Program-made: the position numbers and the translations under genes
Shown: piece after piece, positions 1,152 through 25,115 of the stretch
How the letters are laid out: each line of letters opens with the position of its first letter
Numbering within the stretch: position 1 is the stretch's first letter
The notes under the pieces: generated by a model
Told to the model about the DNA's origin: nothing
The model's database searches: none
The model's input: the letters and a program-made list of their open reading frames with translations, nothing else
DNA from: a virus
Reading direction: 5' to 3' (one strand)
IMG/VR virus record: IMGVR_UViG_3300028394_000289
Coordinates: 1 to 25,271 of that record
Length of the DNA stretch: 25,271 bases

Positions 1152-3332
1152 ATGCCATTACAGACGCTTAAATTTATACCGGGGGTCAACCGCGAATCCA
1201 CTACTTTGGCAAATGAAGGTGGCTGGTTTGAGTCCGATAAGGTCCGGTGGCGCTCTGGCTATCCGGAGAAGATTGGCGGTTGGGTAAAAGACACAGGCAC
1301 TGCTGAAGACGACCTACAGCCCCCCGCAGGGTCTTTTTGGGGCGTGTGCCGTTCTCTGTGGAACTGGCTGACCCTTAACGGGAACAACTTGGTTGGTTTG
1401 GGCACAAACCTGAAGTTCTACATTCAAAACTCTACTGGTGGTTATTTCTACGATGTGACGCCAATCAGGCTGACTCAGTCTCTAAGTAACCCTTTTGTTG
1501 CGACCAACGGATCTAAGACCATAACCGTTACTGCTGCGGGACATGGCGCTACAACTGGGGACTTTGTCACTTTTAGTGGAGCTGTATCCCTTGGCGGAGT
1601 TATTACTGCAGCAATTCTTAATGCAGAGTTTCAAATCACATATGTGAGTTCCAACAAATTTACCATTACATCTTCTGTTACTGCAAATGCCAGCGATACA
1701 GGAAATGGTGGAGCAAGCGTTTCCGCTGCTTTCCAAATCACTACAGGTAACGAAGTGTTTACCCTTGGTACGGGTTGGGGCGCTGGTTTGTGGGGAGGGG
1801 TCACTACTGGTGTAGCAACAACCACGCTCAACGGGACAATCAATTCTTCAGTAACGTCTATTGTGTTGACCTCTGCTACAGGGTTTGGTACTTCTGGCAC
1901 TATATTAGTTGACAACGAATTAATCACTTATTCTGGGGTATCTACCAATACACTTACAGGCTGTACGCGTGGAGCAAGTGAAACCATTGCAGCGGCGCAT
2001 ACTACGGGAGCCACCGTTCAATTAGCCACCACCTTTGGCGGTTGGGGCGTTCCTGCAGCAGCAACTATTTCTACGCAGTTACGCACGTGGACACAAACTA
2101 GTTTTGGGCAAGAACTGATCTTTAATCCACGCAACGGCGCTTTGTATATTTGGACGGTAAATGCCAATCCGAACATTTGGAGTCGCGCCCAGTACCTTGG
2201 ACCAAGCGTCACTATCACTGGTTCTTTTACCCCAGCTATTCCGACAGATGCATACTGCCCAGTTATTGCATCGGCAGTGCTGGTATCTGACTCGTCTCGC
2301 TTTGTTATTGCTTTTGGTTGTAATGACTACGGGGCTACTGCACAGACGCCATTGTTAGTTCGTTGGTCTGATCAAGAATCATTTGCCACGTGGTATCCAG
2401 AAGCAACAAATCAAGCAGGAAGTTATTTATTGAGCCATGGCTCTACGATCATGGCAGCCGTCCAAACTCGTCAAGAGATTTTGGTGTTGACGGATGCGGC
2501 GATTTACTCCATGCAGTATCTTGGCCCACCTTATGTGTGGGGTTTCCAAATCATGGGAGACAACATTTCTGTTATGTCTCCTAACTCCGTGATCACGGTC
2601 AATAACGTGACCTACTGGATGGGCACAGACAAGTTCTACATGTATACCGGACGTGTAGAAACGCTCCCCTGCACTTTGCGTCAATACATATTTGACGACA
2701 TTAATTTCCAACAATCTTTCCAAGTATGCTGTGGCACCAACGAAGGTTACAACGAAATTTGGTGGTTCTATTGTTCGGCTGGATCGACTACTGTAGACAA
2801 GTATGTCATCTTCAACCATTTAGAGCGCACTTGGTATTACGGCACTATTGCTCGCACTGCTTGGTGCGATAGCCCATTGCGTGCGACACCTATGGGTGCG
2901 GGATACAACGGACAGCTTCTTTATCATGAAAATGGAAACGATGATGGATCCACTACCCCTGCTACACCTATTGAAGCGTATTGCCAGTCTGCCGATTTCG
3001 ACATTGGAGATGGCCATAATTTTGGTTTTGTGTGGCGCATTATTCCTGACATAACTTTTGATGGGTCTACAGTGGATCAACCTTCAGTGGCATTTACTGT
3101 GAGACCTCGCCAAAACCCCGGTGCTAATTACGGTACATCCAATGCACCTGCTGTAACCAGTACACAAAACTATACCAATGAGCGGACGTACAACGTGCAG
3201 ACTTTTACCGAATACGCATACGTACGTATTCGCGGACGTCAGATGGCGTTTAAGGTTAGTTCAACAGGCTTAGGGGTATCTTGGCAATTAGGTGCTGCGC
3301 GCCTTGATGTGCGTCAGGATGGAAGACGTTAA
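1152..3332 (+). CDS. Large tail structural protein with inserted beta-domains
   Basis: 726 residues. The N terminus (IPGVNRESTTLANEGGWFES, then KVRWRSGYPEKIGGW) matches a family of podovirus tail proteins I recognise from environmental phages, functionally comparable to tail-tube or tail-hub components. Two accessory modules appear inserted. At about 112-195 there is a beta-rich HGATTGD/LGGVITAAILN unit. At about 222-292 there is a unit with the LTGCTRG...AAHTTGA signature seen in many phage structural proteins. They lie between the GWGAGLWGG and FGGWG segments of the host fold. The remainder is beta-strand rich with many Trp and Tyr. Start ATG 1152 follows AGGA by 6 nt and lies 3 nt after the endolysin stop. 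The stop overlaps the next ATG (TAATG). The role as virion protein is well supported; the exact tail position is not. Confidence 0.7.
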   Translation: MPLQTLKFIPGVNRESTTLANEGGWFESDKVRWRSGYPEKIGGWVKDTGTAEDDLQPPAGSFWGVCRSLWNWLTLNGNNLVGLGTNLKFYIQNSTGGYFYDVTPIRLTQSLSNPFVATNGSKTITVTAAGHGATTGDFVTFSGAVSLGGVITAAILNAEFQITYVSSNKFTITSSVTANASDTGNGGASVSAAFQITTGNEVFTLGTGWGAGLWGGVTTGVATTTLNGTINSSVTSIVLTSATGFGTSGTILVDNELITYSGVSTNTLTGCTRGASETIAAAHTTGATVQLATTFGGWGVPAAATISTQLRTWTQTSFGQELIFNPRNGALYIWTVNANPNIWSRAQYLGPSVTITGSFTPAIPTDAYCPVIASAVLVSDSSRFVIAFGCNDYGATAQTPLLVRWSDQESFATWYPEATNQAGSYLLSHGSTIMAAVQTRQEILVLTDAAIYSMQYLGPPYVWGFQIMGDNISVMSPNSVITVNNVTYWMGTDKFYMYTGRVETLPCTLRQYIFDDINFQQSFQVCCGTNEGYNEIWWFYCSAGSTTVDKYVIFNHLERTWYYGTIARTAWCDSPLRATPMGAGYNGQLLYHENGNDDGSTTPATPIEAYCQSADFDIGDGHNFGFVWRIIPDITFDGSTVDQPSVAFTVRPRQNPGANYGTSNAPAVTSTQNYTNERTYNVQTFTEYAYVRIRGRQMAFKVSSTGLGVSWQLGAARLDVRQDGRR

Positions 3333-3985
3333 TGGCAACGGAATTTAAGAATCTACCCCTAATTGCGCCACAGCAGCCTCGCCTGCTTGTGGCCCCACAG
3401 GAGTACGAGCGTCAATACCAAGATCAATTAAACAATGTCTTGCGGTTGTACTTCAACCAGTTACAGAACTTTAATCAACTTTTTACAACTAATACCGGTG
3501 GGGCGTTACTACAGTTTCCTCATGGTGCGTTTTCGTCAAGCGTTGACCAAACAACAACGGCGAATACAGCCACGTTGATGACACTGAACACAACAGATTT
3601 TGCCAATCAGATATCTATTGCCTCATCTAAGATAACGGTAGCGGTTGCTGGAACCTACAACTTTCAATTTAGTGTGCAGTTAGAAAACTCTAATAACGCT
3701 CCTCAGGATGTATTTATTTGGCTTAAACAAAACGGGGTAGACATTGTTGGTTCTACAGGTAAAGTAGGTTTGCCTGCTAGAAAAAACCCCGGCGACCCAT
3801 TTCATTCTATTATTGGCTGGAACTATTTTGTTAATTTAAGTGCTGGACAGTACATAGAACTATATTGGTCAACTACTAGTGCCGATGTTTCTATTCAGTA
3901 TTACCCCGCTTCTGGAACGCCTACCAAACCATCAACCCAGTCTGTGGTAGCCACAATGTCGTTTGTCTCGGCGCTCTACACATGA
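3332..3985 (+). CDS. Phage structural protein with C1q/TNF-like jelly-roll domain
   Basis: 217 residues. The N terminus (about 1-50) is helical and Gln/Asn-rich (YERQYQDQLNNVLRLYFNQL) and could form a trimeric attachment stalk. From about residue 65 to the end it has the strand pattern of a C1q/TNF-like jelly roll: GAFSSSVDQTTTANTAT, then AGTYNFQFSVQL, DVFIWLKQNG, IIGWNYFVNLSAGQYIELYW and a closing SVVATMSFV strand. Such domains usually trimerise and occur in virion surface or tail-associated proteins. Its place directly after the tail protein (TAATG overlap) supports a tail or receptor-interaction role. This is fold recognition from residue pattern; no specific ligand can be inferred. Confidence 0.7.
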   Translation: MATEFKNLPLIAPQQPRLLVAPQEYERQYQDQLNNVLRLYFNQLQNFNQLFTTNTGGALLQFPHGAFSSSVDQTTTANTATLMTLNTTDFANQISIASSKITVAVAGTYNFQFSVQLENSNNAPQDVFIWLKQNGVDIVGSTGKVGLPARKNPGDPFHSIIGWNYFVNLSAGQYIELYWSTTSADVSIQYYPASGTPTKPSTQSVVATMSFVSALYT

Positions 3986-4021
3986 TACGATTTACCCAAT
4001 TTTCCCCCGTAAGGAACCAAC

Positions 4022-6460
4022 ATGGCAACTAGTCCCCAAGGCATTATGGCGCTCCCACAAGAAGCCGAACAAGCCGCTCCCCAAATCAGCATTGATGACT
4101 CTTACGACGCTGTACGTGGGGGTTTAAGTGATGCTAGTCCCGAGGCTTCGGCACAGGTGCAAGAAACACTAAATCAACTACTGCCCGCTTTGGATCAGCT
4201 TAGTGATGAAGACTTAGATCAGCTTATTCAAACCGTGCAATATATGCACGACCATGAAGAAGAGTACGCTAATACGTTGGCTACATTAATTCAACAAGGC
4301 GTAGTAGATGAAGGGGTTTTTCCTGCCGAGTATGACCCTGAGTTTATTGCTACTTTGGGTATGGTTTTGTTGGAAGCCAAGCGTCAGCGCATGCAGTCCG
4401 CTCCTCAGCAAATGCCTCAGCCTCCTATGCAATTAGCTAGAGGCGGGATTGCAGAAGCTGCACGTATGGTGGCTTCTCATGGCCGCTATGGCGATACCAT
4501 GTTGGCACACATCAATAAGGATGAAGCCAGATTACTTAAAAAGCGTGGCGGTTCTGGGACTATTAATCCAAAAACAGGATTGCCTGAGTTTTGGGGATTA
4601 GGCAACATCACCAGAGGTATTCAAGACCTAGGTCAAGGTGCAGTAGATACTGTTAGAAATCCGGTTGGCACAATTAATAAAGCCGTAAACACTGTTGTTG
4701 GCGGCGTTAAAGATGTAGTGTCCAGCCCGGTTGGCAGAATTATTGCCGTGGCAGCGCTTGCCACGTTCCTTGGCCCAGCAGCAATGTCCGTTTATGGTGT
4801 TGCTGGGGCAGGCCTTGGTACAGCCGCTTCTATCGGCCTTGCTTCTGCTGGTGTAACCGCCCTAGGTGGGGGCAACATTAAAGACATTATTCGTAGTGGT
4901 GCACAAGGCTACTTTATTGGAGCACTTGCAGGTCCTGCGGGCAGTGCAATTGGCTCTGCTACTGGCGTTACAAACGCTGCAGCTCAGGCGGCCATGGGCG
5001 CGGGCGCTGCCGGTACTGCACTAGGTGCGTTATCAGGCAAGAGCCTCCAACAATCATTGAAAGAAGGCCTTACTTCTGCTGCAGTTGCTGGATTAGCCAC
5101 TGGTGCCGCCAAAGGATTTGGCGCACAAGCTCCCGGACAGGCTCCTGTTCCCGGACAGGCTCCAACAGAAGGACCTTTGACCCCGGATCAAGTCAATCAG
5201 CAGATCAGTGAAATGGCCAAGAACCAGCCGGGTAATGTTAGTGGCACATACAACCCTGCAACTGGTAGGTTTGAAGTCCCTGTTTCTGATGCGGGCACTG
5301 CCGCCAATCCTCAAGGGCCTGTTACTGCGGCTGGGGGAGCTACGGGCCAAAACCAAATTGATTTGAATAATCGAGTTGCAGCCGTACAGGCTCCTGCAGG
5401 CGCACCACCAGTTAATCCTGATCCACTAGGAGATTTCATCGCCAAAAATAATGCGATGACTACAGAAATGGGCAATACCCCTATGGGTCAGCCCACCACA
5501 TGGGAAAGTATTAAAAGTACCATGTTCCCTAGCAATCCAACAGCTAACGATGTTATTGATTCTAAAGACTATAAAAATCTAGTTGCAAAAGGAGTAAGTC
5601 CTGACACTGCCTATGCACAGGTCAAAGCAGATATGACTCCTAGTACTTTGGCAAAATATGGCCCTAGCGTTGGTGCAGGCCTTGGTATTGCTGCTTTGTC
5701 CGGTGGGTTTAAACCAAAGACCGTGTCGCCTTCTCAAGGCTCACAAGATTTGATGAGTGGCAAAGCTTCTCAGGACATCATCAGTGCTAATCCCAGTCGT
5801 TACATTACACAGGGTATGCCCGGTGTGACATACGATGCAAGCGGAAACATCACTGGTTCTAGTGCAGGATGGACACCAAGAAGCGGATATGGGACTACGG
5901 AAGTAGCGGGAAATTACATTCCATATACCTCAACCGGGTATGGAAGCACCCCCGCTCCTGTTTACAGTACGCCTATTGCAGCAATTGGTGGAGGAAATCA
6001 GATATCTCAAAGATATAATAACAATCCATACAATTTCCTTCCACGCTATGCAGCAGATGGTGGTTATATGCAGTCTTCTCCTGCATTTCCCGGTACGCCT
6101 TTGACAGCACAGCCTGATCAACATTCCATAATGGGCGGGGGCATGTTGCCGATGAACACCTCCGGAATGCCAATGAACACATCAGGTGCTCCAATGAATC
6201 TTCCAGTAGGGTACGCGGCAGGGGGAATGCCTATGGCAGGTATTGCTTCTTTGGCTCCGGGCGGTTATCCTAGACGTAATGGTCAAATTAGCGGTCCGGG
6301 GACCGAGACCTCTGATTCCATCCCTGCAATGCTTTCTGACGGGGAATTTGTCATGACTGCCAAAGCCGTCAAAGCGCTTGGCAAAGGCAACCGTCGAGCA
6401 GGAGCGAAGAAAATGTACGCTCTTATGCATCACCTTGAGAAAAACGCAGCACGGGGATAA
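4022..6460 (+). CDS. Large internal virion / tail-associated protein with Gly-Ala membrane-like core
   Basis: 812 residues. RBS AAGGAA lies 8-9 nt before ATG 4022. The N-terminal 110 residues are acidic and helical. At about 140-193 is a motif set recurrent in environmental phage virion proteins (RGGIAEAARMV, GDTMLAHINKDEARLLK, GGSGTINPKTGLPEFWG). Residues ~237-330 form a Gly/Ala hydrophobic core that could insert into membrane. A Pro/Gly/Gln-rich low-complexity stretch follows, with short repeats at 5131-5163 and 6149-6211. The C terminus (about 756-812) has the ISGPGTETSDSIPAML / SDGEFVMTAKAV motif seen at the end of many phage tail and ejection proteins. A DNA-ejection or tail tape-measure-like role is inferred from composition and from its place before other similar proteins. 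Confidence 0.65.
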   Translation: MATSPQGIMALPQEAEQAAPQISIDDSYDAVRGGLSDASPEASAQVQETLNQLLPALDQLSDEDLDQLIQTVQYMHDHEEEYANTLATLIQQGVVDEGVFPAEYDPEFIATLGMVLLEAKRQRMQSAPQQMPQPPMQLARGGIAEAARMVASHGRYGDTMLAHINKDEARLLKKRGGSGTINPKTGLPEFWGLGNITRGIQDLGQGAVDTVRNPVGTINKAVNTVVGGVKDVVSSPVGRIIAVAALATFLGPAAMSVYGVAGAGLGTAASIGLASAGVTALGGGNIKDIIRSGAQGYFIGALAGPAGSAIGSATGVTNAAAQAAMGAGAAGTALGALSGKSLQQSLKEGLTSAAVAGLATGAAKGFGAQAPGQAPVPGQAPTEGPLTPDQVNQQISEMAKNQPGNVSGTYNPATGRFEVPVSDAGTAANPQGPVTAAGGATGQNQIDLNNRVAAVQAPAGAPPVNPDPLGDFIAKNNAMTTEMGNTPMGQPTTWESIKSTMFPSNPTANDVIDSKDYKNLVAKGVSPDTAYAQVKADMTPSTLAKYGPSVGAGLGIAALSGGFKPKTVSPSQGSQDLMSGKASQDIISANPSRYITQGMPGVTYDASGNITGSSAGWTPRSGYGTTEVAGNYIPYTSTGYGSTPAPVYSTPIAAIGGGNQISQRYNNNPYNFLPRYAADGGYMQSSPAFPGTPLTAQPDQHSIMGGGMLPMNTSGMPMNTSGAPMNLPVGYAAGGMPMAGIASLAPGGYPRRNGQISGPGTETSDSIPAMLSDGEFVMTAKAVKALGKGNRRAGAKKMYALMHHLEKNAARG
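5131..5163 (+). repeat. 15-bp direct repeat inside virion protein gene
   Basis: TCCCGGACAGGCTCC occurs at 5131-5145 and again exactly at 5149-5163, an 18-nt period that encodes two PGQAP units. It is an in-frame tandem repeat within the low-complexity linker and probably reflects replication slippage. Confidence 0.85.
6149..6211 (+). repeat. Three-copy 21-nt in-frame repeat (PMNxxxx heptads)
   Basis: Three consecutive 21-nt units start at 6149, 6170 and 6191 and encode PMNTSGM, PMNTSGA and PMNLPVG. The first two are near-identical and the third has diverged. The repeat sits in the Gly/Met/Pro-rich linker before the conserved C-terminal motif of the virion protein. Confidence 0.8.
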
Positions 6461-6463
6461 ACC

Positions 6464-7558
6464 ATGGCAACCACAGGCGCAGCAGCAAGTAATATTACCG
6501 AACAATTTGTCCGGGAAGCACCGGACATTGAAGCCTATAAATTAGGCTTAATGCAATCAGCGCAGGCGCTCAAGCCCCCTACGCTTCCTGACTATCAAAT
6601 TGCGGGCATGGCCCCACAACAAACACAGGCCATAAAACAAGGCCAAGCAGGTATTGGTGCATACATCCCTTACATGCAGGCAGGCACACAGAACGTAGGT
6701 CAAGCCGCAGGGACAATTGGAGAAGCTTCAGACATATTGCGTGGTGCAGATACACGTAATCAATTTGATGCTGCACAACAAGCTATGAATTTAGCTGCAG
6801 GCCAAACCCTGCAACAAGGCCAGCCAATTGGTCAGCAACAGATTCAACAGTACATGAATCCGTACACCAATTTGGCGTTGAGCCAGCAGTTGGGTGAAAT
6901 GAATCGCCAAGCGAAGATTCAACAACAAGGATTGCAAGCAGGAGCCGTTCAGGCTGGTGCTTTTGGTGGTGCGCGTGAGGGCATTCAACGTGCGGAATTA
7001 GGTCGCAACCTTGCTCAAACACAAAATCAAGCAATTGCACAAGCAATGCAGCAAAACTATGGTCAGGCGTTATCTACTGCTCAACAGCAACAACAAGCCG
7101 GTTTGGCAGCAGCGGGCCAGCTATCTAATGTAGGCCAAGGCATAGGTTCATTAGCTGGTCAGCAATATGGCATTGGCCAAAGCATGGCACAGGGCCTTGG
7201 TTCGCTTGGCACACAACTTGGTAACATAGGTGTTCAACAAGCTGCTTTGGGCCAGACTCAGCAGCAGTTGGGCCAAAACGATACCAACTTCTTGTACAAC
7301 CTTGGCGCTCAACAACAAAAGCAACAGCAAGCAGTACTCGACGCACAGCGCGCAACATCCATGCAAAACGCTATGCAGCCGTATCAGCAGTTGGCATTCC
7401 AATCAGATATTTACAAAGGGGCGCCTTCTACACAGATGGCTATCACCCAGCAGCAAGCTGCGGCCCCAAGTCCATTCCAGCAAATTGCTGGTGTAGGTAC
7501 AGGTATTTTGGGATTGGCAGGCGCTACAAATGCCATGAGCAAATCAGGTCTATTTTAA
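6464..7558 (+). CDS. Gln/Ala-rich internal virion (putative ejection) protein
   Basis: 364 residues, extremely rich in Gln, Ala and Gly and predicted almost wholly helical. Marks of a recognised phage family are QQYMNPYTNLALSQQLGEMN (residues ~125-145) and AGAFGGAREGIQRAELGRNL (~165-185), followed by long QQ-containing helical repeats. A short hydrophobic C-terminal segment (IAGVGTGILGLAGATNAM) may contact membrane. Gln/Ala-rich helical proteins placed after the tail genes in podoviruses are typically ejected into the cell with the DNA. The start at ATG 6464 has only a weak purine stretch (GGGGAT) upstream and follows the previous stop by 3 nt, which suggests translational coupling. Ejection function is inferred. 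Confidence 0.65.
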   Translation: MATTGAAASNITEQFVREAPDIEAYKLGLMQSAQALKPPTLPDYQIAGMAPQQTQAIKQGQAGIGAYIPYMQAGTQNVGQAAGTIGEASDILRGADTRNQFDAAQQAMNLAAGQTLQQGQPIGQQQIQQYMNPYTNLALSQQLGEMNRQAKIQQQGLQAGAVQAGAFGGAREGIQRAELGRNLAQTQNQAIAQAMQQNYGQALSTAQQQQQAGLAAAGQLSNVGQGIGSLAGQQYGIGQSMAQGLGSLGTQLGNIGVQQAALGQTQQQLGQNDTNFLYNLGAQQQKQQQAVLDAQRATSMQNAMQPYQQLAFQSDIYKGAPSTQMAITQQQAAAPSPFQQIAGVGTGILGLAGATNAMSKSGLF

Positions 7559-7564
7559 GGAAGC

Positions 7565-9925
7565 ATGATGCAAGACGAAGCTCTCAAACGTGCCATGTTC
7601 ACTAAGCCTATGACTAAGGCTACCCGCAACTCCGGCATCATGGCTGGATTTGAAGATGACGTGGAAGATATGCAACCAGAGGAGCCAGAAGAGCAAATGT
7701 CTCCTATGGCCCGCACGCCTCAAAATCCAGAGATTTTGATGAATACTTTGCGTGGGGACATGCGCTCTGTTGATGCACGTGTACAAGAGCTCGCAAATAT
7801 GGTCGGGGACCAAGCAGCACAGGAAACACCTCCTGAAGTTTTGGCTTTGTTGCAGGCTCAATTAGCCGCCCAACAGATGCCCCAAGGCGGTATTGGTGCT
7901 TTGCCCCAGTCTGCCGGAATGCCTCCTGCTCCCGGCGCTGGAATGCCTCCACAAGGAATGCCGCCCGCACCACCTCAAGGAGCTGGGCCGATGGCACCAG
8001 TGGGTGCTCCCCCTTTTCCGCAGGGGGCATCAGCCCCCCAACAATTTAGCCACGGCGGGGCAGTAGAGCCTCCAACCCCAGACGGCATGCCTCCGATGCA
8101 TGCTTTCTTGGGTTCTATTGTTACTCCGATGGCACGCTATGCACAGATGGGTGCAGATAAAGCCGCGATGCTTGGTCAAGAAGCCAATATCATCGGCGGC
8201 CGTTTGATGACTCAGGGTTTTCCCCAGCAGTTCCCCGGAATCTTGGAGAACCTAAGAGGACCCAACGGAAGATACATTGCTGATCAAATTTTGAAATACC
8301 CAACACTGACCCAGCATTTGGGTAATGTTGGTTCTAAACTAGCAGAACAATACCCTCGCGTGGCGGGAGCACTTAATACTGTGGCCCAGCCTGTTGTTGC
8401 AGGCGTTGGAGCCCTTGGTGCATCTATTCCTATCATCAATAGCATGGCGCCTTCAGCGAAGCGTTCTCCTGAAGAGGAAGCACAGTTTCAAGAAGTATTA
8501 GCACGCATTCCAACAAACAGCGAATTCCCAACAGGTGCAACTCCACCTGTCGCGCCCCCTGTTAATTCAAAGGAACCTGCTCCTCCTCCCTCTGGCGCTA
8601 AGAAGCCTGCCGTTCCTGTATCCCCTGCTGCGGTTACTGGGGAAAAGACTACAGATGAGTTCATCAAGGACCAAGCCAAGCCTGCTGGTGCTAACTTGAC
8701 GAGCATTATTCCTACCTCTTCTGCTAAGACAGATGTGGAAGGTATTCGTGAGAAATACAAGGAATACGGCCCACTGTTCAAAGAGATTTTGGGCGACAAC
8801 AACGATGATATGCGTGCAAACGCTATGTTGTTATTGGCTGATGCTGGCTTTAAATATGCCAGCGCTCGTCCTACTGCAGGCTCTACTCCTGTAACTCTTT
8901 TCTCCGAATCTATTGCCGATTTGCCAAGAGGCGTTGCTTCTTTAATTGCACAAGCAAGAGACCGCAAAGTCAAGATCGATACCGCTGCTTTGTCACAAGC
9001 TATTACAGATGTTTCGACAGAGAAGAAAGCAATGGCAACACTCAGGTCAGACATCATCAAAGGCGACTACAGTCTTTTACGGGAGCAAGCCAGACAAGGC
9101 GGGGGGAGTTTGGAAGACGGCGGCGCAGGTTTGGTTATTGCCAAGAATCCAAAAGGCAGTTACTTGGGCGTTTCTATTGATCCGAAGAACCCAACCGTAC
9201 AGTCTGCTGTTTCTAGCCGTTGGACATTGAGTGACACCAATCCGTTTGTTGAATTCCGTGGCCAAGCTCCTACGACTGTGGAAACAGATAAGCAAGAGAG
9301 AACCAAGCTCACCGGAACTTTGCGCTCACTGGACAACAGTCTATCTACGCTTGAAAACCTTAAAGGTGAGTTTGCAAATGCATACGGCCCCGGAGCATGG
9401 TTTAACGACAAGGTCAACAACCTGCTTGTTCCTGTCTTGCCCACGGCACTTGTCCGTCCTGACGTCAATCTGGTAGATACAAAAACTCGTATCAATACAG
9501 GTTTGAATTCCATCATCAAGAACATTGCCTCTGCTAATGACAGCGGACGTGTTGCTGTACAGGAACAAGAATGGGCTAAGAAGACGGCAGCGGATATTGA
9601 AAACCCAACAGCGTTTTTCCAAGACAAAGAGTTGGCTGCCAAACAGTTCAACAGTATGGAAACCATGTTGCGTAATTCACGCCAACAGGTCCTGACTCAG
9701 TTGGGCTATGAAGGTAGTGACTACGTTATGCGCACACCTAACACAGGGACAAAGAGCGATCCGTTTATTATTCCTACTGAGCCTAATGCCCAAAAGCAAA
9801 TGTTTAATTTCCTTGGCAATAGCCTTGGTAAGATTCAACAACCAAATGCAACCGTATATCTGAAGTTGCCTAACAATACAATTCAAGCGTTCAACCCCGG
9901 ACAATTGAAAGAACTGGTGAAATGA
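7565..9925 (+). CDS. Large putative internal virion protein, Pro/Met-rich N-terminal half
   Basis: 786 residues. RBS AAGGAAGC stands immediately before tandem ATG codons at 7565 and 7568; the first is used here. The N-terminal ~75 residues are acidic and helical. Residues ~100-180 are a low-complexity Pro/Gly/Met/Gln linker. About 200-300 include a Val/Ala/Gly hydrophobic stretch (VVAGVGALGASIPI). A Pro/Ala/Ser linker follows at ~310-365, then a largely helical region to the end. No enzymatic motif is visible; I find no lysozyme or protease residues. Its position between two other ejection-like proteins and the ATGA overlap with the next gene place it in the late virion operon. Structural role probable, exact role unknown. 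Confidence 0.6.
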   Translation: MMQDEALKRAMFTKPMTKATRNSGIMAGFEDDVEDMQPEEPEEQMSPMARTPQNPEILMNTLRGDMRSVDARVQELANMVGDQAAQETPPEVLALLQAQLAAQQMPQGGIGALPQSAGMPPAPGAGMPPQGMPPAPPQGAGPMAPVGAPPFPQGASAPQQFSHGGAVEPPTPDGMPPMHAFLGSIVTPMARYAQMGADKAAMLGQEANIIGGRLMTQGFPQQFPGILENLRGPNGRYIADQILKYPTLTQHLGNVGSKLAEQYPRVAGALNTVAQPVVAGVGALGASIPIINSMAPSAKRSPEEEAQFQEVLARIPTNSEFPTGATPPVAPPVNSKEPAPPPSGAKKPAVPVSPAAVTGEKTTDEFIKDQAKPAGANLTSIIPTSSAKTDVEGIREKYKEYGPLFKEILGDNNDDMRANAMLLLADAGFKYASARPTAGSTPVTLFSESIADLPRGVASLIAQARDRKVKIDTAALSQAITDVSTEKKAMATLRSDIIKGDYSLLREQARQGGGSLEDGGAGLVIAKNPKGSYLGVSIDPKNPTVQSAVSSRWTLSDTNPFVEFRGQAPTTVETDKQERTKLTGTLRSLDNSLSTLENLKGEFANAYGPGAWFNDKVNNLLVPVLPTALVRPDVNLVDTKTRINTGLNSIIKNIASANDSGRVAVQEQEWAKKTAADIENPTAFFQDKELAAKQFNSMETMLRNSRQQVLTQLGYEGSDYVMRTPNTGTKSDPFIIPTEPNAQKQMFNFLGNSLGKIQQPNATVYLKLPNNTIQAFNPGQLKELVK

Positions 9926-12900
9926 CAACTCTTACAAATGCCAACGGAGATTTAGTTGATCTAACTACTGGCGAGGTGATGGGCCGCGCGCAAGGCGCGC
10001 CTACTACTGTTGCAGACCCACGCAAGAACACCGGAGCTCCGGATCAGATCGTGGCTAATCCTTTAATGGGGTTGCTACAAAACACAACTTGGGGTTTTAA
10101 CTCTGCTTTGTTTGCATTACCGGACGCACTTGTTACACAAATTGGCAAACAGATCTTTCGTCAAAAGCCAGAAGAAACTGTCACGCTCACCAAGCTTTTT
10201 AATTCCGGCGAAGTTGCTCCTCGTAATGTAGAGGAGCGCTATGCCCGTGCCGCAGGTGAAGGCCTAGGCGGCACATTGCCTTTTACTGGAGTGCTTGCCG
10301 CTGCCGCTCGTATGCGCCCTATGGTCATGGCCGCCACACCCAGCGCAGGGGTCATCAAGAGTATTGCTAATGATGCCATTCAAATGGTGCAAAAGTCTCC
10401 CATGAAAGCGGCCGCATTGGATATGGTTTTTGGTGTAGGGTACGAAGGCCTTCGACAAGCAGTTGAAGAAAATGTAAGCGATCAAAATCAATACAAACCA
10501 CTGCTCAAGGAACTGTTACCAGCCGCTACTTTTGTAGGCTTACCTTTAGCTGCAGCCACATTGAGTCCAACGGCATTGGCGGTGCGTGGAGGCAAGCAAC
10601 TACAAGACAAGCTTGTCAACAATCTGGGTGAAGTCGGACAAGAAGTCTTGGCTCAAGAAACAGGATTGTTTAAGCTGCCCGGCATTAGGATTGTTCCTTC
10701 TGTTTTGATTGGCCGTGCGGAAAAGAAATTAAGTGGTGTCTTTGCAGACATTCAGAAAAATCCAGAGGCGTTGAAAGCTTTGGATGAACTCAATACCATC
10801 TTGGCTAACCCTGATGTGGAAAAACTTGGATTCCAGTTTGGTGTTGCAGAGCGCTACATGGACCCTGCATTGTTACAGAAACAAGCAGAGACGCTTCAAG
10901 GCATGTCCCCCAAGGACCTAGCGCCTTTCCGCAAGCAGTACGCTGAAAATCAAGCCAAACTAGAGCAGTTGTTTTCTACGTTCTCCCCTACTTCACGTAA
11001 GACGGTAGAGGAAGCATTTCTTGCCGCACAAAAGCAACGCCAAACATTTTTTGATGATTTACTGGCCCAACGTCAGACCTTGACTGATTCAGAGCGTGAG
11101 CTCTTGAACCAACGCCTTGGACCTCAGAACCCTGATCAAATCAATAACGAGCTACGTGGTGTTTTGATGTCTGGCATGGAGATGGATGCGGGCATGCGCC
11201 AAGGCATTTTGAGACGTATGGGCCTTAAACAAGCCATGGCACCTGATGGAACACCAATGCCTACACGGGCAGATGGAAAGTCTTTGTTTCCAGCAAGGGA
11301 CATGGAAGCTGCAGCCACTGCGTTAATTGAGAAATACAAGCCAGAGCGTCCTTCCCTGCGGGTCAACGTCCCTGAGCCAGTGCAATTACTAGAGCGCTTT
11401 GTCAAAGGCCAGCAACAGGCCAGAGATGCCATGACGGACAAGATGCTGGTGCAGTTGACTGATCAGGCAATCAACGAGCAACTCGGACCACTTGCCAAGG
11501 AAATGCCTGCTGATTTCCAAAAAGCTTTGCGAGACTCTGTATTGCAATTAGTCCGAGGCGACACGGCCAAAGGTTCTAAGCGCAAAGTTACTCTTGCTGA
11601 TATTGCTGCCACTCCAGACAAGAATGGCATGATTACTGTGGCTACCGGCATACCGGGGCGCAAAATCTACGTCAATCCCGGACAACTACAACAAGATGCC
11701 CAACGCATTGCCGCAGCCAATACAGGCATCGACATCAACGTACCCGAGGCCTTGGATTATCTCCAGTCCGCTCAGCGTTTCCGTAACGATTCCCTTGGCC
11801 GCTATAACGCTGCCATGATGAAGGGCCGTACCCGTTTGACAGATGCTCAACGTATTATTGATTCTGGCAACTCAGTGTTCAAGGACGTTGAGAAACTGAT
11901 CATGGACCACGTGCCAAAGATCAAGCAAGAGTATCAAGGCATGAAAATGATCCTTGATGACTACAAGGCCGGCTACGAACAAAGCCTGCCTTTGCTGATG
12001 ACACAGAAGACCCGTGGCGGACAAGAATACTATCTGCCCAACGAAGACTTGATGGCCACAGCATTTAAAAATGCCGACCGTCTACGTCAATTGCAGATAA
12101 CCATAGGTAATAACCCTCAAGGTAAAGAACTGTTAGAAAAAGGCGCTGTAGATTGGATTCGCAGCAAGCCTATTTTTGACAAAGACGGTTTGATTGACGC
12201 GACCAAATTGCGCCGTGTCATGGACCAGAATAAAAATATTGTTGAGGCCTTGCCTGCCAGCGTACGCTTAAAAATTGAAGACGAAGCTAAATTTGCTGAC
12301 GACATTGCCATTCGTTTGGCAGAAATTGATCAACGCCGTATCCAAGCCAAAGATGCAGAGCTTGATAGTCTTTTGGCAAAGTCTTCGCGTGCGGATGCTA
12401 GTCCTAGACAGACCTTAGAAAAAGCAATTAAAGACCCTGCCACTATGCGCAGTCTGGTCAATGAGATGAGCAAGGATCCAGAGAATCTGGCTTCACTACG
12501 TCGTTCCGTTTACGACTTGGCTACCGAAGGTGCGGCCAAAGGTGGCGCACTAGAAGTCTTCTTGCGTAATAACGAGAAGTCTTTGAAGGTGCTGTATGGT
12601 GGCACAGGCCACTATAACAACCTACTTCAGTTGGCCAACATGCAACGACGCGTCAACGCGTTTGCTGATGTCACTGGACAAGTTCCTGCTTTTGACACGC
12701 TAGACCAGCAACTACAGGGGCTGTTTGGTGTAAGCATTCCTTACTTGACTACCAGTATCCGTAACGTAGCGATGCGTAATGTCTCTAAAGAAACCATGCT
12801 GGTGACCTTAGGCACACGTTTGCTCAACGCCAAAGAAGCAAAAGTGTTTGAGCGCCTGTTTACCAAGGCTTTGGAAGACCCCAAGTTTGCGGAGAAGATG

Positions 12901-13299
12901 ACTAGTTTGAACACCCCTGCTGCAGCGGCGGCCGTGGCCAAGGAACTGCAGAACTTTGGTATGTCTCCTAGGCGTTTGGCTGAAGTATTGACAGCGCCTG
13001 CGGCGTCCCGTGGGGCTGTAATTGAGGCACAGGACTTGGCCCAACAAGGCAATCCTCCCATCCCAGTTTCTAGCAATGTTTCACGTGGAACATCTGCCGC
13101 ACAAATGCTCAAGGCCCAGCCAGCAGCGCCCGCCACCCGTGGTACAAACTTCAACCCACGTATGCCAACGACGCCACAGGTCACTCCCGGCCAGCAGCAG
13201 ATACCTTTGATGTATCCTGCCATGTTCCCGAATGACCCAATCAGCGGGCTATTGCAACAACGTCAGGCGCAGGTACAACCACGGCCCCCGGGCATGTAA
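9922..13299 (+). CDS. Very large internal virion protein (putative DNA-ejection protein)
   Basis: 1125 residues, the largest gene in the window. It begins at ATG 9922 overlapping the previous stop (ATGA). It is mostly alpha-helical with long charged segments. Hydrophobic stretches lie near residues ~45-80 and ~195-225 (LLPAATFVGLPLAAATLSP), and the C-terminal tail of about 80 residues is rich in Pro, Gln and Ala, ending RPPGM. I see no transglycosylase or peptidase signature. Size, composition and position recall the giant ejection proteins of T7-like podoviruses (comparable to gp15/gp16) without detectable motif identity. An envelope-spanning ejection-tube role is therefore inference by analogy. 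Confidence 0.55.
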   Translation: MTTLTNANGDLVDLTTGEVMGRAQGAPTTVADPRKNTGAPDQIVANPLMGLLQNTTWGFNSALFALPDALVTQIGKQIFRQKPEETVTLTKLFNSGEVAPRNVEERYARAAGEGLGGTLPFTGVLAAAARMRPMVMAATPSAGVIKSIANDAIQMVQKSPMKAAALDMVFGVGYEGLRQAVEENVSDQNQYKPLLKELLPAATFVGLPLAAATLSPTALAVRGGKQLQDKLVNNLGEVGQEVLAQETGLFKLPGIRIVPSVLIGRAEKKLSGVFADIQKNPEALKALDELNTILANPDVEKLGFQFGVAERYMDPALLQKQAETLQGMSPKDLAPFRKQYAENQAKLEQLFSTFSPTSRKTVEEAFLAAQKQRQTFFDDLLAQRQTLTDSERELLNQRLGPQNPDQINNELRGVLMSGMEMDAGMRQGILRRMGLKQAMAPDGTPMPTRADGKSLFPARDMEAAATALIEKYKPERPSLRVNVPEPVQLLERFVKGQQQARDAMTDKMLVQLTDQAINEQLGPLAKEMPADFQKALRDSVLQLVRGDTAKGSKRKVTLADIAATPDKNGMITVATGIPGRKIYVNPGQLQQDAQRIAAANTGIDINVPEALDYLQSAQRFRNDSLGRYNAAMMKGRTRLTDAQRIIDSGNSVFKDVEKLIMDHVPKIKQEYQGMKMILDDYKAGYEQSLPLLMTQKTRGGQEYYLPNEDLMATAFKNADRLRQLQITIGNNPQGKELLEKGAVDWIRSKPIFDKDGLIDATKLRRVMDQNKNIVEALPASVRLKIEDEAKFADDIAIRLAEIDQRRIQAKDAELDSLLAKSSRADASPRQTLEKAIKDPATMRSLVNEMSKDPENLASLRRSVYDLATEGAAKGGALEVFLRNNEKSLKVLYGGTGHYNNLLQLANMQRRVNAFADVTGQVPAFDTLDQQLQGLFGVSIPYLTTSIRNVAMRNVSKETMLVTLGTRLLNAKEAKVFERLFTKALEDPKFAEKMTSLNTPAAAAAVAKELQNFGMSPRRLAEVLTAPAASRGAVIEAQDLAQQGNPPIPVSSNVSRGTSAAQMLKAQPAAPATRGTNFNPRMPTTPQVTPGQQQIPLMYPAMFPNDPISGLLQQRQAQVQPRPPGM

Positions 13300-13308
13300 G
13301 GAATAGAA

Positions 13309-13680
13309 ATGGAAATGATTGGACGCCTAGTCGGCACATTGTTCTTGGCCCGTGAATATGCGCACAGGGCGCATCTGCGCGTCACTGGCCCCGGTAGCTT
13401 TGCCAAGCATTCTGCGTTGGGTGAGTTCTACACAGGCATCATCGACATCGCCGATACGATTACAGAGGCCTATCAGGGCCGCCACAGCATTATCGAAATC
13501 CCTTACCTTCCAATGATTGACGAGGATGATCCTGTCAAAGCACTGGAAGAGCTGTTGGATGACGTAGAGAAGATTCGCTATGACGCAGTGGACAAGAAAG
13601 ATACTGCCATCCAAAACCTTATAGACGAATCCGTTGCCACGTTCTTGTCTGCGCTATATAAGCTAAAGAACCTCAAATAA
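13309..13680 (+). CDS. Small Dps/ferritin-like four-helix protein (DUF5856-like)
   Basis: 123 residues, with RBS AAGGAA before ATG 13309. I recognise the N-terminal half as the phage DUF5856 type. It aligns well with Dps: in helices A and B, residues H22, H34, D49 and E53 (AHLRVTGPGSFAKH...DIADTITEAYQG) have the spacing H-x11-H-x14-D-x3-E that binds iron at Dps ferroxidase sites. The extra acidic residue that Dps has four positions after the second His is Gly38 here, next to E39. The C-terminal half (about 73-123) looks like two further helices, giving a shortened four-helix bundle. There is no DNA-binding Lys-rich N-tail. It closes the main virion gene run, so it may be a virion component or an oxidative-stress protein. 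Iron binding is inferred, not shown. Confidence 0.7.
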   Translation: MEMIGRLVGTLFLAREYAHRAHLRVTGPGSFAKHSALGEFYTGIIDIADTITEAYQGRHSIIEIPYLPMIDEDDPVKALEELLDDVEKIRYDAVDKKDTAIQNLIDESVATFLSALYKLKNLK

Positions 13681-13702
13681 TGTGGACCCCTTCTCTCTTC
13701 AT

Positions 13703-13810
13703 ATGGAAGGCGCTGCGGAAGAACTCTTGAAGTATTGCAAGGCAGGTGGCAAAATACTAAAAGGACTAGAAAACCGCCGTAAGGACGAGCGGGCTTTATT
13801 TTTATCATAA
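13703..13810 (+). pseudogene. Duplicated endolysin 3' fragment (35 codons)
   Basis: An in-frame stretch from ATG 13703 to TAA 13810 encodes the last 35 residues of a GH24 lysozyme (MEGAAEELLKYC...NRRKDERALFLS). It matches the C terminus of the endolysin at 672-1148 in 34 of 35 residues; only the last residue differs (Ser for Gly). By direct comparison about 19 of 108 bases differ, and all but the final codon's changes are synonymous. The catalytic E/C/T region is absent and similarity stops sharply at the ATG. No Shine-Dalgarno sequence precedes it (pyrimidine-rich CCCCTTCTCTCTTC). It is best read as a recombination relic of a related phage's endolysin, though translation as a mini-peptide is not excluded. 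Confidence 0.85.
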
Positions 13811-13819
13811 GGGCATAAA

Positions 13820-24261: not shown

Positions 24262-24487
24262 TTATCACTACCTCCTCAAAAGTTTCAATCCAAACATGCG
24301 CGCCACAAGGCAGCGGCTTGTCAGGGCTATAGATCACGCGACTCGGACCAAGGATCTCGACGCTATTTGCATATGTGTTGCTGTTATAGGTCTTGACCGT
24401 TAGCACAGGTTCATTACTTTCTAGCTTTCTGTTAGTCTTTATCACGTGTTGGTTGACATGAATCAAAGTTTTTTTCTTACGGGACAT
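24254..24487 (-). CDS. Conserved small phage protein (HVNQHVI family pattern)
   Basis: 77 residues from ATG 24487, chosen because AGGAGAGG stands just upstream; an in-frame extension of 14 residues to 24529 lies inside the neighbouring gene. The basic N terminus (MSRKKK) is followed by IHVNQHVIKTNRKL, then LTVKTYNSNTYANSVEILGP and a Cys-containing KPLPCGAHVWIET. I recognise this pattern from a small family found across diverse phages with no known function. It is beta-rich and lacks membrane segments. It overlaps both neighbours and is translationally coupled. Confidence 0.8.
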   Translation of the reverse strand: MSRKKKTLIHVNQHVIKTNRKLESNEPVLTVKTYNSNTYANSVEILGPSRVIYSPDKPLPCGAHVWIETFEEVVINA

Positions 24488-25115
24488 TGTTCCTCTCCTT
24501 GATATCGTAAAACCAATCATCTCCCGCACTCCACTTGCGTGTGCCGTCTACTGTCCAAAATGTTTGGGCGGCTTGGAAGTCAGGAAACTTTGTATCAGCC
24601 GGAATCAAAGACTGGTCATACCAAAGACAGCGATTGTTTGGCTGACAAGCAAACTGACCATTGTCCAACGCTATCCAGTTAAAAGATTTATGTTCTTCTG
24701 CTTGCTCTGTAAAACCTGTGTCCAACACCATCTCATCCGCGCAAAAGTCCACAGTAAACAAGTAGCGACCAAAATGCCACTCTTTATCTTTGCCAAGGAA
24801 CTTCACGCCTAAGTTGCGTAAGCCAATCTTTTCAACAATGGTGAACCGATAACTCATACAGTCCCAAAGTTGCAAAGTATCAATGGGTAAATCGCCTGCG
24901 TCTTCTTTCCAAACATAGGCATGGATCGGCAGCTTGTCATACAACGCACCATAATTTGGCAGCAAAGACTCAATGCGAAACACCTGTCCACGCAAGGCTT
25001 TCAGCGATACCCAAATGGCCGGCTCCAATTCACCGTAGCCCTTTTGAAAGTTATATAAAAACTCGCGTTTGACAAAGCATTTCAAAGGGGGCAAGGATGC
25101 CACAAGATAGCTCAT
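24477..25115 (-). CDS. Conserved phage protein of unknown function
   Basis: 212 residues with RBS AAGGAG before ATG 25115. Recognisable conserved segments are VKREFLYNFQKGYGELEPAI, a YGALYDKLPIHAYVW motif near residue 60, LQLWDCMSYRFTI, the GRYLFTVDF strand, EEHKSFNWIALDNGQFACQP with NNRCLWYD, and a C-terminal FQAAQTFWTVDG. It is rich in Trp, Tyr and Phe and predicted beta-rich. From memory, similar proteins are frequent in phages of Burkholderiales and relatives, always of unknown function. It overlaps the next leftward gene by 11 nt and the previous one by 4 nt. Confidence 0.8.
   Translation of the reverse strand: MSYLVASLPPLKCFVKREFLYNFQKGYGELEPAIWVSLKALRGQVFRIESLLPNYGALYDKLPIHAYVWKEDAGDLPIDTLQLWDCMSYRFTIVEKIGLRNLGVKFLGKDKEWHFGRYLFTVDFCADEMVLDTGFTEQAEEHKSFNWIALDNGQFACQPNNRCLWYDQSLIPADTKFPDFQAAQTFWTVDGTRKWSAGDDWFYDIKERNNVP

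Follow-up and report, generated by a model that had tools for sequence, protein, structure and literature searches.

A reduced Dps-type protein with conserved ferroxidase-like residues encoded behind the late structural module of a phage

Dps proteins of bacteria handle iron and limit oxidative damage. Full-length Dps proteins encoded by phages are already known (PMC8008677, PMC6669764). In the Dickeya phage LIMEstone1, ORF078 was reported as an unknown structural protein of 13.15 kDa, identified by three peptides with 28% coverage (PMC3296691); the GenBank feature at 58136–58489 of this phage bears the label ‘confirmed structural protein’ and translates to a 13.15 kDa member of the DUF5856 family that carries all four of the ferroxidase-type ligand residues considered below. 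Gp217 of the Salmonella phage Sajous1 was represented by 10 spectra from CsCl-purified virions and was assigned to ‘Ferritin’ by Phyre2 at 96.7%, with the authors themselves warning of contaminants (PMC10892097); the GenBank entry for gp217 likewise translates to a member of the DUF5856 family. Spectral counts for the virion-detected homologues are low. Thus, both virion association and a ferritin label have already been published for one branch of this family.

The gene described here lies in a 25,271-nt stretch of viral DNA, the whole of which is referred to as the window. The window carries a late structural module together with genes for an endolysin, a primase, helicases and a PolA-type polymerase. 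The features relevant to the argument are:

1152–9925, + strand: upstream late structural module (phrog_3287 virion structural protein, tape-measure-like tail protein, weak match to a DNA ejection protein, unknown protein of 786 aa)
9922–13299, + strand: 1125-aa protein immediately upstream of the mini-Dps gene, separated from it by a 10-nt gap
13309–13680, + strand: mini-Dps gene (DUF5856 / PHROG 858, T4 rI.-1 family), 123 aa plus stop codon
13372–13374, + strand: H22 codon, aligned by hhalign with the first ferroxidase His of Dps; invariant in 85 homologues
13408–13410, + strand: H34 codon, aligned by hhalign with the second ferroxidase His of Dps; invariant in 85 homologues
13420–13422, + strand: G38 codon, at the site of the extra acidic ligand of Dps (Listeria D47)
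13453–13455, + strand: D49 codon, aligned by hhalign with the ferroxidase Asp of Dps; invariant in 85 homologues
13465–13467, + strand: E53 codon, aligned by hhalign with the ferroxidase Glu of Dps; invariant in 85 homologues

The mini-Dps reading frame is a real gene, because relatives occur in 67 viral contigs (one scan) and the frame is under strong purifying selection (dN/dS 0.03–0.06 against close relatives, where dS was computable). Its start, 10 nt past the stop of the 1125-aa frame, is preceded by a ribosome-binding-like sequence, AAGGAA. The translated frame contains H22, H34, D49 and E53, as well as the segments TGPGSFAKH and DIADTITEA, just as the earlier note had read them. That note had called the protein ‘DUF5856-like’, which understates its affiliation: it is a full member of the family, scoring 52.5 bits against PF19174 (DUF5856) relative to a curated Pfam cut-off of 34.6 (E 1.1e-13). 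In PHROGs the protein falls in phrog_858, ‘starvation-inducible transcriptional regulator’ (E 1e-20), and it also matches the phage Dps family phrog_3636 over residues 3–53 (E 4.5e-7); two of three phage Dps proteins match phrog_858 in return. We do not retain ‘transcriptional regulator’ as a function, given that the protein has a predicted Dps fold; the PHROG label seems to have been inherited from the ‘DNA starvation’ wording. A match to DUF3213, obtained for 1 of 67 members at E 0.0036 and below the cut-off, was regarded as noise.

Conservation of the putative ligands was assessed in an alignment of 85 divergent DUF5856 members, with identity to the window protein down to about 27%. The columns of H22, H34, D49 and E53, and no others, are invariant, so that the case named by the earlier note as refuting, homologues without conservation of the two His, the Asp and the Glu, does not hold. 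The chance that four named columns out of 123 would be the four invariant ones is around 1e-7; because the invariant columns are exactly 22, 34, 49 and 53, the H/H/D/E motif is not a chance match. Alignments of 67 and 46 sequences each have six invariant columns, with the four ligands among them. The spacing of the motif had been described as exactly that of Dps, H-x11-H-x14-D-x3-E, and for x14 and x3 this is the rule throughout (85/85). The H22-to-H34 spacing, by comparison, is x8 in 54 members, x11 in 29 and x12 in two, so that H-x11-H is a clade feature; the x8 members have an A-B loop three residues shorter. The window protein does have the exact spacing, but across the family selection does not maintain it. 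The additional His of the HxxH motif in Dps, here H19, is retained in 82/85, and a C-terminal YKL is conserved across DUF5856 / PHROG 858 in the same alignment. At the position of the additional acidic ligand of Dps, which we take to be that of Listeria D47, the family has Gly in 67 members, Asp in five, Asn in five, Glu in four and Arg in three. The window protein, in agreement with the earlier reading, has Gly here (G38) and so lacks the fifth Dps ligand, an acidic residue that is not conserved family-wide.

The AlphaFold2 monomer model, built with 67 relatives (pLDDT 97, pTM 0.91), predicts helices at residues 3–24, 30–58, 75–93 and 99–121, and residues 59–74 are without a helix, meaning that the BC helix is missing; being a monomer, the model does not bear on whether a dodecamer or a site between subunits forms. 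As the earlier note had anticipated, the fold predicted by AlphaFold2 is that of a four-helix bundle, and it matches Dps in the Foldseek and VIA comparisons. Essentially all of the top 50 Foldseek matches in the PDB are Dps or Dps-like dodecameric miniferritins, with query TM up to 0.79 and weak E-values (8.5e-3 and up), and VIA gives Z up to 14.7 across 122 residues, with Dps first and bacterioferritins behind. A second model, of a short-loop Kuttervirus member from the Sajous1 gp217 sequence family (pLDDT 92), matches Dps almost exclusively. Helical bundles easily reach high Z, and for this reason the sequence evidence weighs more.

For the sequence comparison, the DUF5856 family was aligned with nine Dps sequences in hhalign, with 30 column shuffles, reversal and ligand masking as controls. 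The match has 96.8% probability over 117 columns, compared with at most 2.8% for the column shuffles (n = 30) and 0.6% for the reversed profile. Masking of the four ligand columns lowers it only to 90.4%, and therefore the match to Dps does not rest on the motif alone; bacterial Dps sequences by themselves give 93.2%. For the C-terminal half taken separately the value is 5.7%, which indicates that helices A and B account for most of the homology. An hmmsearch of the PDB with the family HMM ranks MrgA, HP-NAP and E. coli Dps highest (best E 5.6e-4), with Dps proteins making up the best 29 matches; phmmer with the single sequence retrieves only Dps chains from the PDB, at weak E-values of 0.14–1.2. 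The earlier description of a reduced Dps/ferritin relative is thus backed by hhalign with shuffled controls and by the PDB search, and on profile and model evidence we take the window protein to be a true but reduced relative of Dps. What the data show, then, is descent from the Dps family, a four-helix bundle as the predicted fold, and the retention without exception of the His/His/Asp/Glu set of the Dps ferroxidase centre.

In all 11 of the same-clade contigs sampled, the mini-Dps gene lies behind the same protein of 1100–1200 aa. The window's 1125-aa version is probably a large virion or ejection protein; neither it nor the 786-aa protein upstream has a PHROG or Pfam match, so the label ‘ejection protein’ for these two remains the earlier note's own reading. 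In another clade the mini-Dps gene starts where the portal gene stops or overlaps its stop, and the large neighbours scored as portal proteins in seven of the 10 cases scanned. Elsewhere, a terminase, major head/protease, tail-fibre or virion structural protein takes the place of the large neighbour. In T4-like phages the family gene adjoins rI and thymidine kinase (tk), outside the structural operon.

Directly downstream of the mini-Dps gene, the window carries a truncated copy of the 3' end of its own endolysin gene (13701–13811, + strand; endolysin gene at 621–1148), with 83% identity over 110 bp and open as MEGAAEELLKYCKAGGKILKGLENRRKDERALFLS*. The same remnant is present in one related contig (L001), and another (L013) has a full endolysin gene about 1.8 kb downstream; the remnant looks like a relic of movement of the endolysin gene. 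At 24477–25115 (− strand) the window encodes a 212-aa protein that matches PHROG 3704, ‘ferredoxin’ (E 1e-75), and has no Pfam match; the PHROG name is doubtful. Among larger phage proteins, Dps-like folds are predicted in BFVD for A0A6J7WPK9, A0A6J7WIS1 and A0A6J7XDU5, which bear prohead protease annotations (333–763 aa), and others are annotated as ParB/sulfiredoxin or NUDIX proteins. These models raise the possibility of Dps domains fused to head proteins, as another route by which a miniferritin might enter the virion.

The family is widespread among phages. A tblastn search at E 0.01 found relatives in 538 phage records, with a range that includes RB49, T4 (rI.-1), Kuttervirus Vi01 and other Ackermannviridae, Caulobacter phages, small podoviruses and 640-kb huge phages. 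Individual relatives and a closer alignment served as queries for the collection scans. Those of IMG/VR gave 67, 34 and 19 relatives, and one query gave at least 600 matches. In 84,980 bacterial and archaeal genomes, one pattern-based scan, which reaches only sequences near its patterns, found three relatives, all on short contigs; the family therefore looks mostly viral. A further clade (L059–L062 and L064–L067, around 5001–5117, on contigs of 27–117 kb) keeps HxxH-x11-H-x14-D-x3-E (FHKLHLKVSGPSAFAMH...DLVDTITEAYQG) and has a different C-terminal half.

The best explanation, which we consider fairly probable, is that the gene encodes a late-expressed Dps-type miniferritin that has a ferroxidase site and is probably incorporated into the virion. 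Such a protein would be a stripped-down miniferritin of about 120 aa, with four helices and neither a BC helix nor a basic tail, made together with the late structural proteins, and it would probably enter the virion or be assembled with it. On pairing of subunits, H22 and H34 of one subunit and D49 and E53 of its partner would form a metal site able to bind Fe(II) and oxidise it with H2O2 or O2. Removal of this Fenton reagent near packaged, ejected or newly replicated phage DNA would lessen oxidative damage, and some copies would travel in the virion of the window phage, as in LIMEstone1 and Sajous1. The earlier proposal that the protein is packed in the virion has precedent in homologues (LIMEstone1 ORF078 and Sajous1 gp217); for the window phage itself we infer packaging, iron binding and oligomeric state alike.

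A soluble mini-Dps that is not packaged would account for the fold and ligand evidence equally well: it would sequester iron released late in the infected cell and protect replicated DNA and assembly, with the place in the late operon reflecting timing only. The position of the gene in T4-like phages, beside rI/tk and away from structural genes, is in keeping with this, and the low spectral counts in Sajous1 could represent carry-over. We nevertheless regard a purely intracellular role as rather unlikely, in view of the detection of homologues both in the virion proteome of LIMEstone1 and in virions of Sajous1 purified on CsCl, and because unrelated phages repeatedly have the gene next to portal, terminase, head or tail genes. 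Far less likely is a ‘Ferrojan horse’, in which the protein would load iron into the tail or virion for recognition by a siderophore or iron receptor, an idea put forward for gp217, the Kuttervirus homologue, whose gene neighbours that of a tail completion protein (PMC10892097). We disfavour this because, in a published test, Salmonella mutants in tonB and feoB proved no less susceptible to infection than the wild type; the family is also found outside structural regions, and a Dps-type site, to judge from the fold, would lie inside the protein, out of reach of a receptor.

Control of lysis timing, with the Dps fold put to another use, has been suggested for T4 rI.-1, over-expression of which makes lysis inhibition last slightly longer (Golec et al., 2010, cited from a review, PMC6832632). 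The effect is slight and comes from over-expression. It does not explain ligand conservation; a pure regulator would not be expected to hold exactly four metal ligands invariant. Moreover, the window phage does not belong to the T-even type, none of its scanned genes was recognised as rI/rIII-like, and homologues occur in phages without the T4 lysis-inhibition genes (RaK2), all of which leaves lysis regulation a very improbable role. Dps ancestry by itself would accommodate a DNA-condensing Dps packaged with the genome, and the earlier note had suggested that the protein protects DNA. Protection by DNA binding is disfavoured: the window protein is acidic (pI 5.0, net charge about −7 at pH 7), helix A begins at residue 3, and there is no Lys/Arg-rich extension at either terminus. 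The low pI and absent basic tail argue against DNA condensation, and two checked homologues are acidic too, making this the least credible of the roles weighed. In this the protein resembles Dps proteins whose protective action involves no DNA binding, as described for Agrobacterium Dps (PDB 1o9r).

We read the window protein as a member of a reduced, loop-variable, widespread and mostly unrecognised family of phage mini-Dps proteins. A broader reading, which we hold only tentatively, is that DUF5856 could be an ancient, mostly phage-specific lineage of virion-carried miniferritins, extending from T4-like to huge phages and small podoviruses, that would deliver or maintain iron-oxidising activity along with the infecting genome. 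To our knowledge, a virion-borne antioxidant enzyme is not an established category of phage component. In the open-access literature we found no paper that mentions DUF5856 by name and none with both rI.-1 and Dps; nor did we find published there a Dps origin, with exceptionless ferroxidase ligands, for the whole DUF5856/rI.-1 family. If the broader reading is true, T4 rI.-1 would encode a metalloprotein and not a transcriptional or lysis regulator. Sequence profiles, predicted fold and ligand invariance show that a Pfam family of unknown function, labelled a transcriptional regulator in databases and linked to T4 lysis inhibition, is a reduced Dps lineage; it is represented in more than 500 records of sequenced phages and by at least 600 matches on environmental contigs. 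The small T4 gene rI.-1 thereby gains a testable biochemical function. Together with the published mass spectrometry of two homologues, the assignment offers a cheap and concrete way to test whether phage particles contain a ferroxidase.

Within PHROG 858 / DUF5856, including T4 rI.-1, the window protein has the same length, the same four invariant residues and the C-terminal LYKL; rI.-1 of T4-like phages sits beside rI and tk, whereas the window gene is in a late structural module. The window clade has the longer A-B loop, of Dps length (x11). The Kuttervirus/Limestonevirus virion protein (Sajous1 gp217, LIMEstone1 ORF078, Vi01_092c) shares the family, predicted fold and four ligands of the window protein, but is about 34% identical to it, has an H-x8-H loop and lies in a myovirus tail-gene neighbourhood. 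The phage Dps proteins of phrog_3636 (Lactobacillus plantarum phages, gut ‘Gratiaviridae’, Streptomyces phage Karimac) have reciprocal profile matches with the window family; they are mostly longer and fuller, and the three loci examined (L093, L094 and L095) are near thymidylate synthase genes (ThyA/ThyX), not in structural operons, with two of the three also near thioredoxin-like genes. T4 rI.-1 is near a thymidine kinase gene too, which may be coincidence or may reflect a nucleotide-metabolism module. Dps proteins such as MrgA, HP-NAP and those of Listeria and E. coli resemble the window protein in the four-helix bundle, the H-x11-H-x14-D-x3-E spacing, and the HxxH motif and GP loop in register. 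Compared with bacterial Dps, the window protein is reduced to 120 aa from about 145–190, has shorter helices C and D, no BC helix and no basic tail, and carries Gly at the D47 position.
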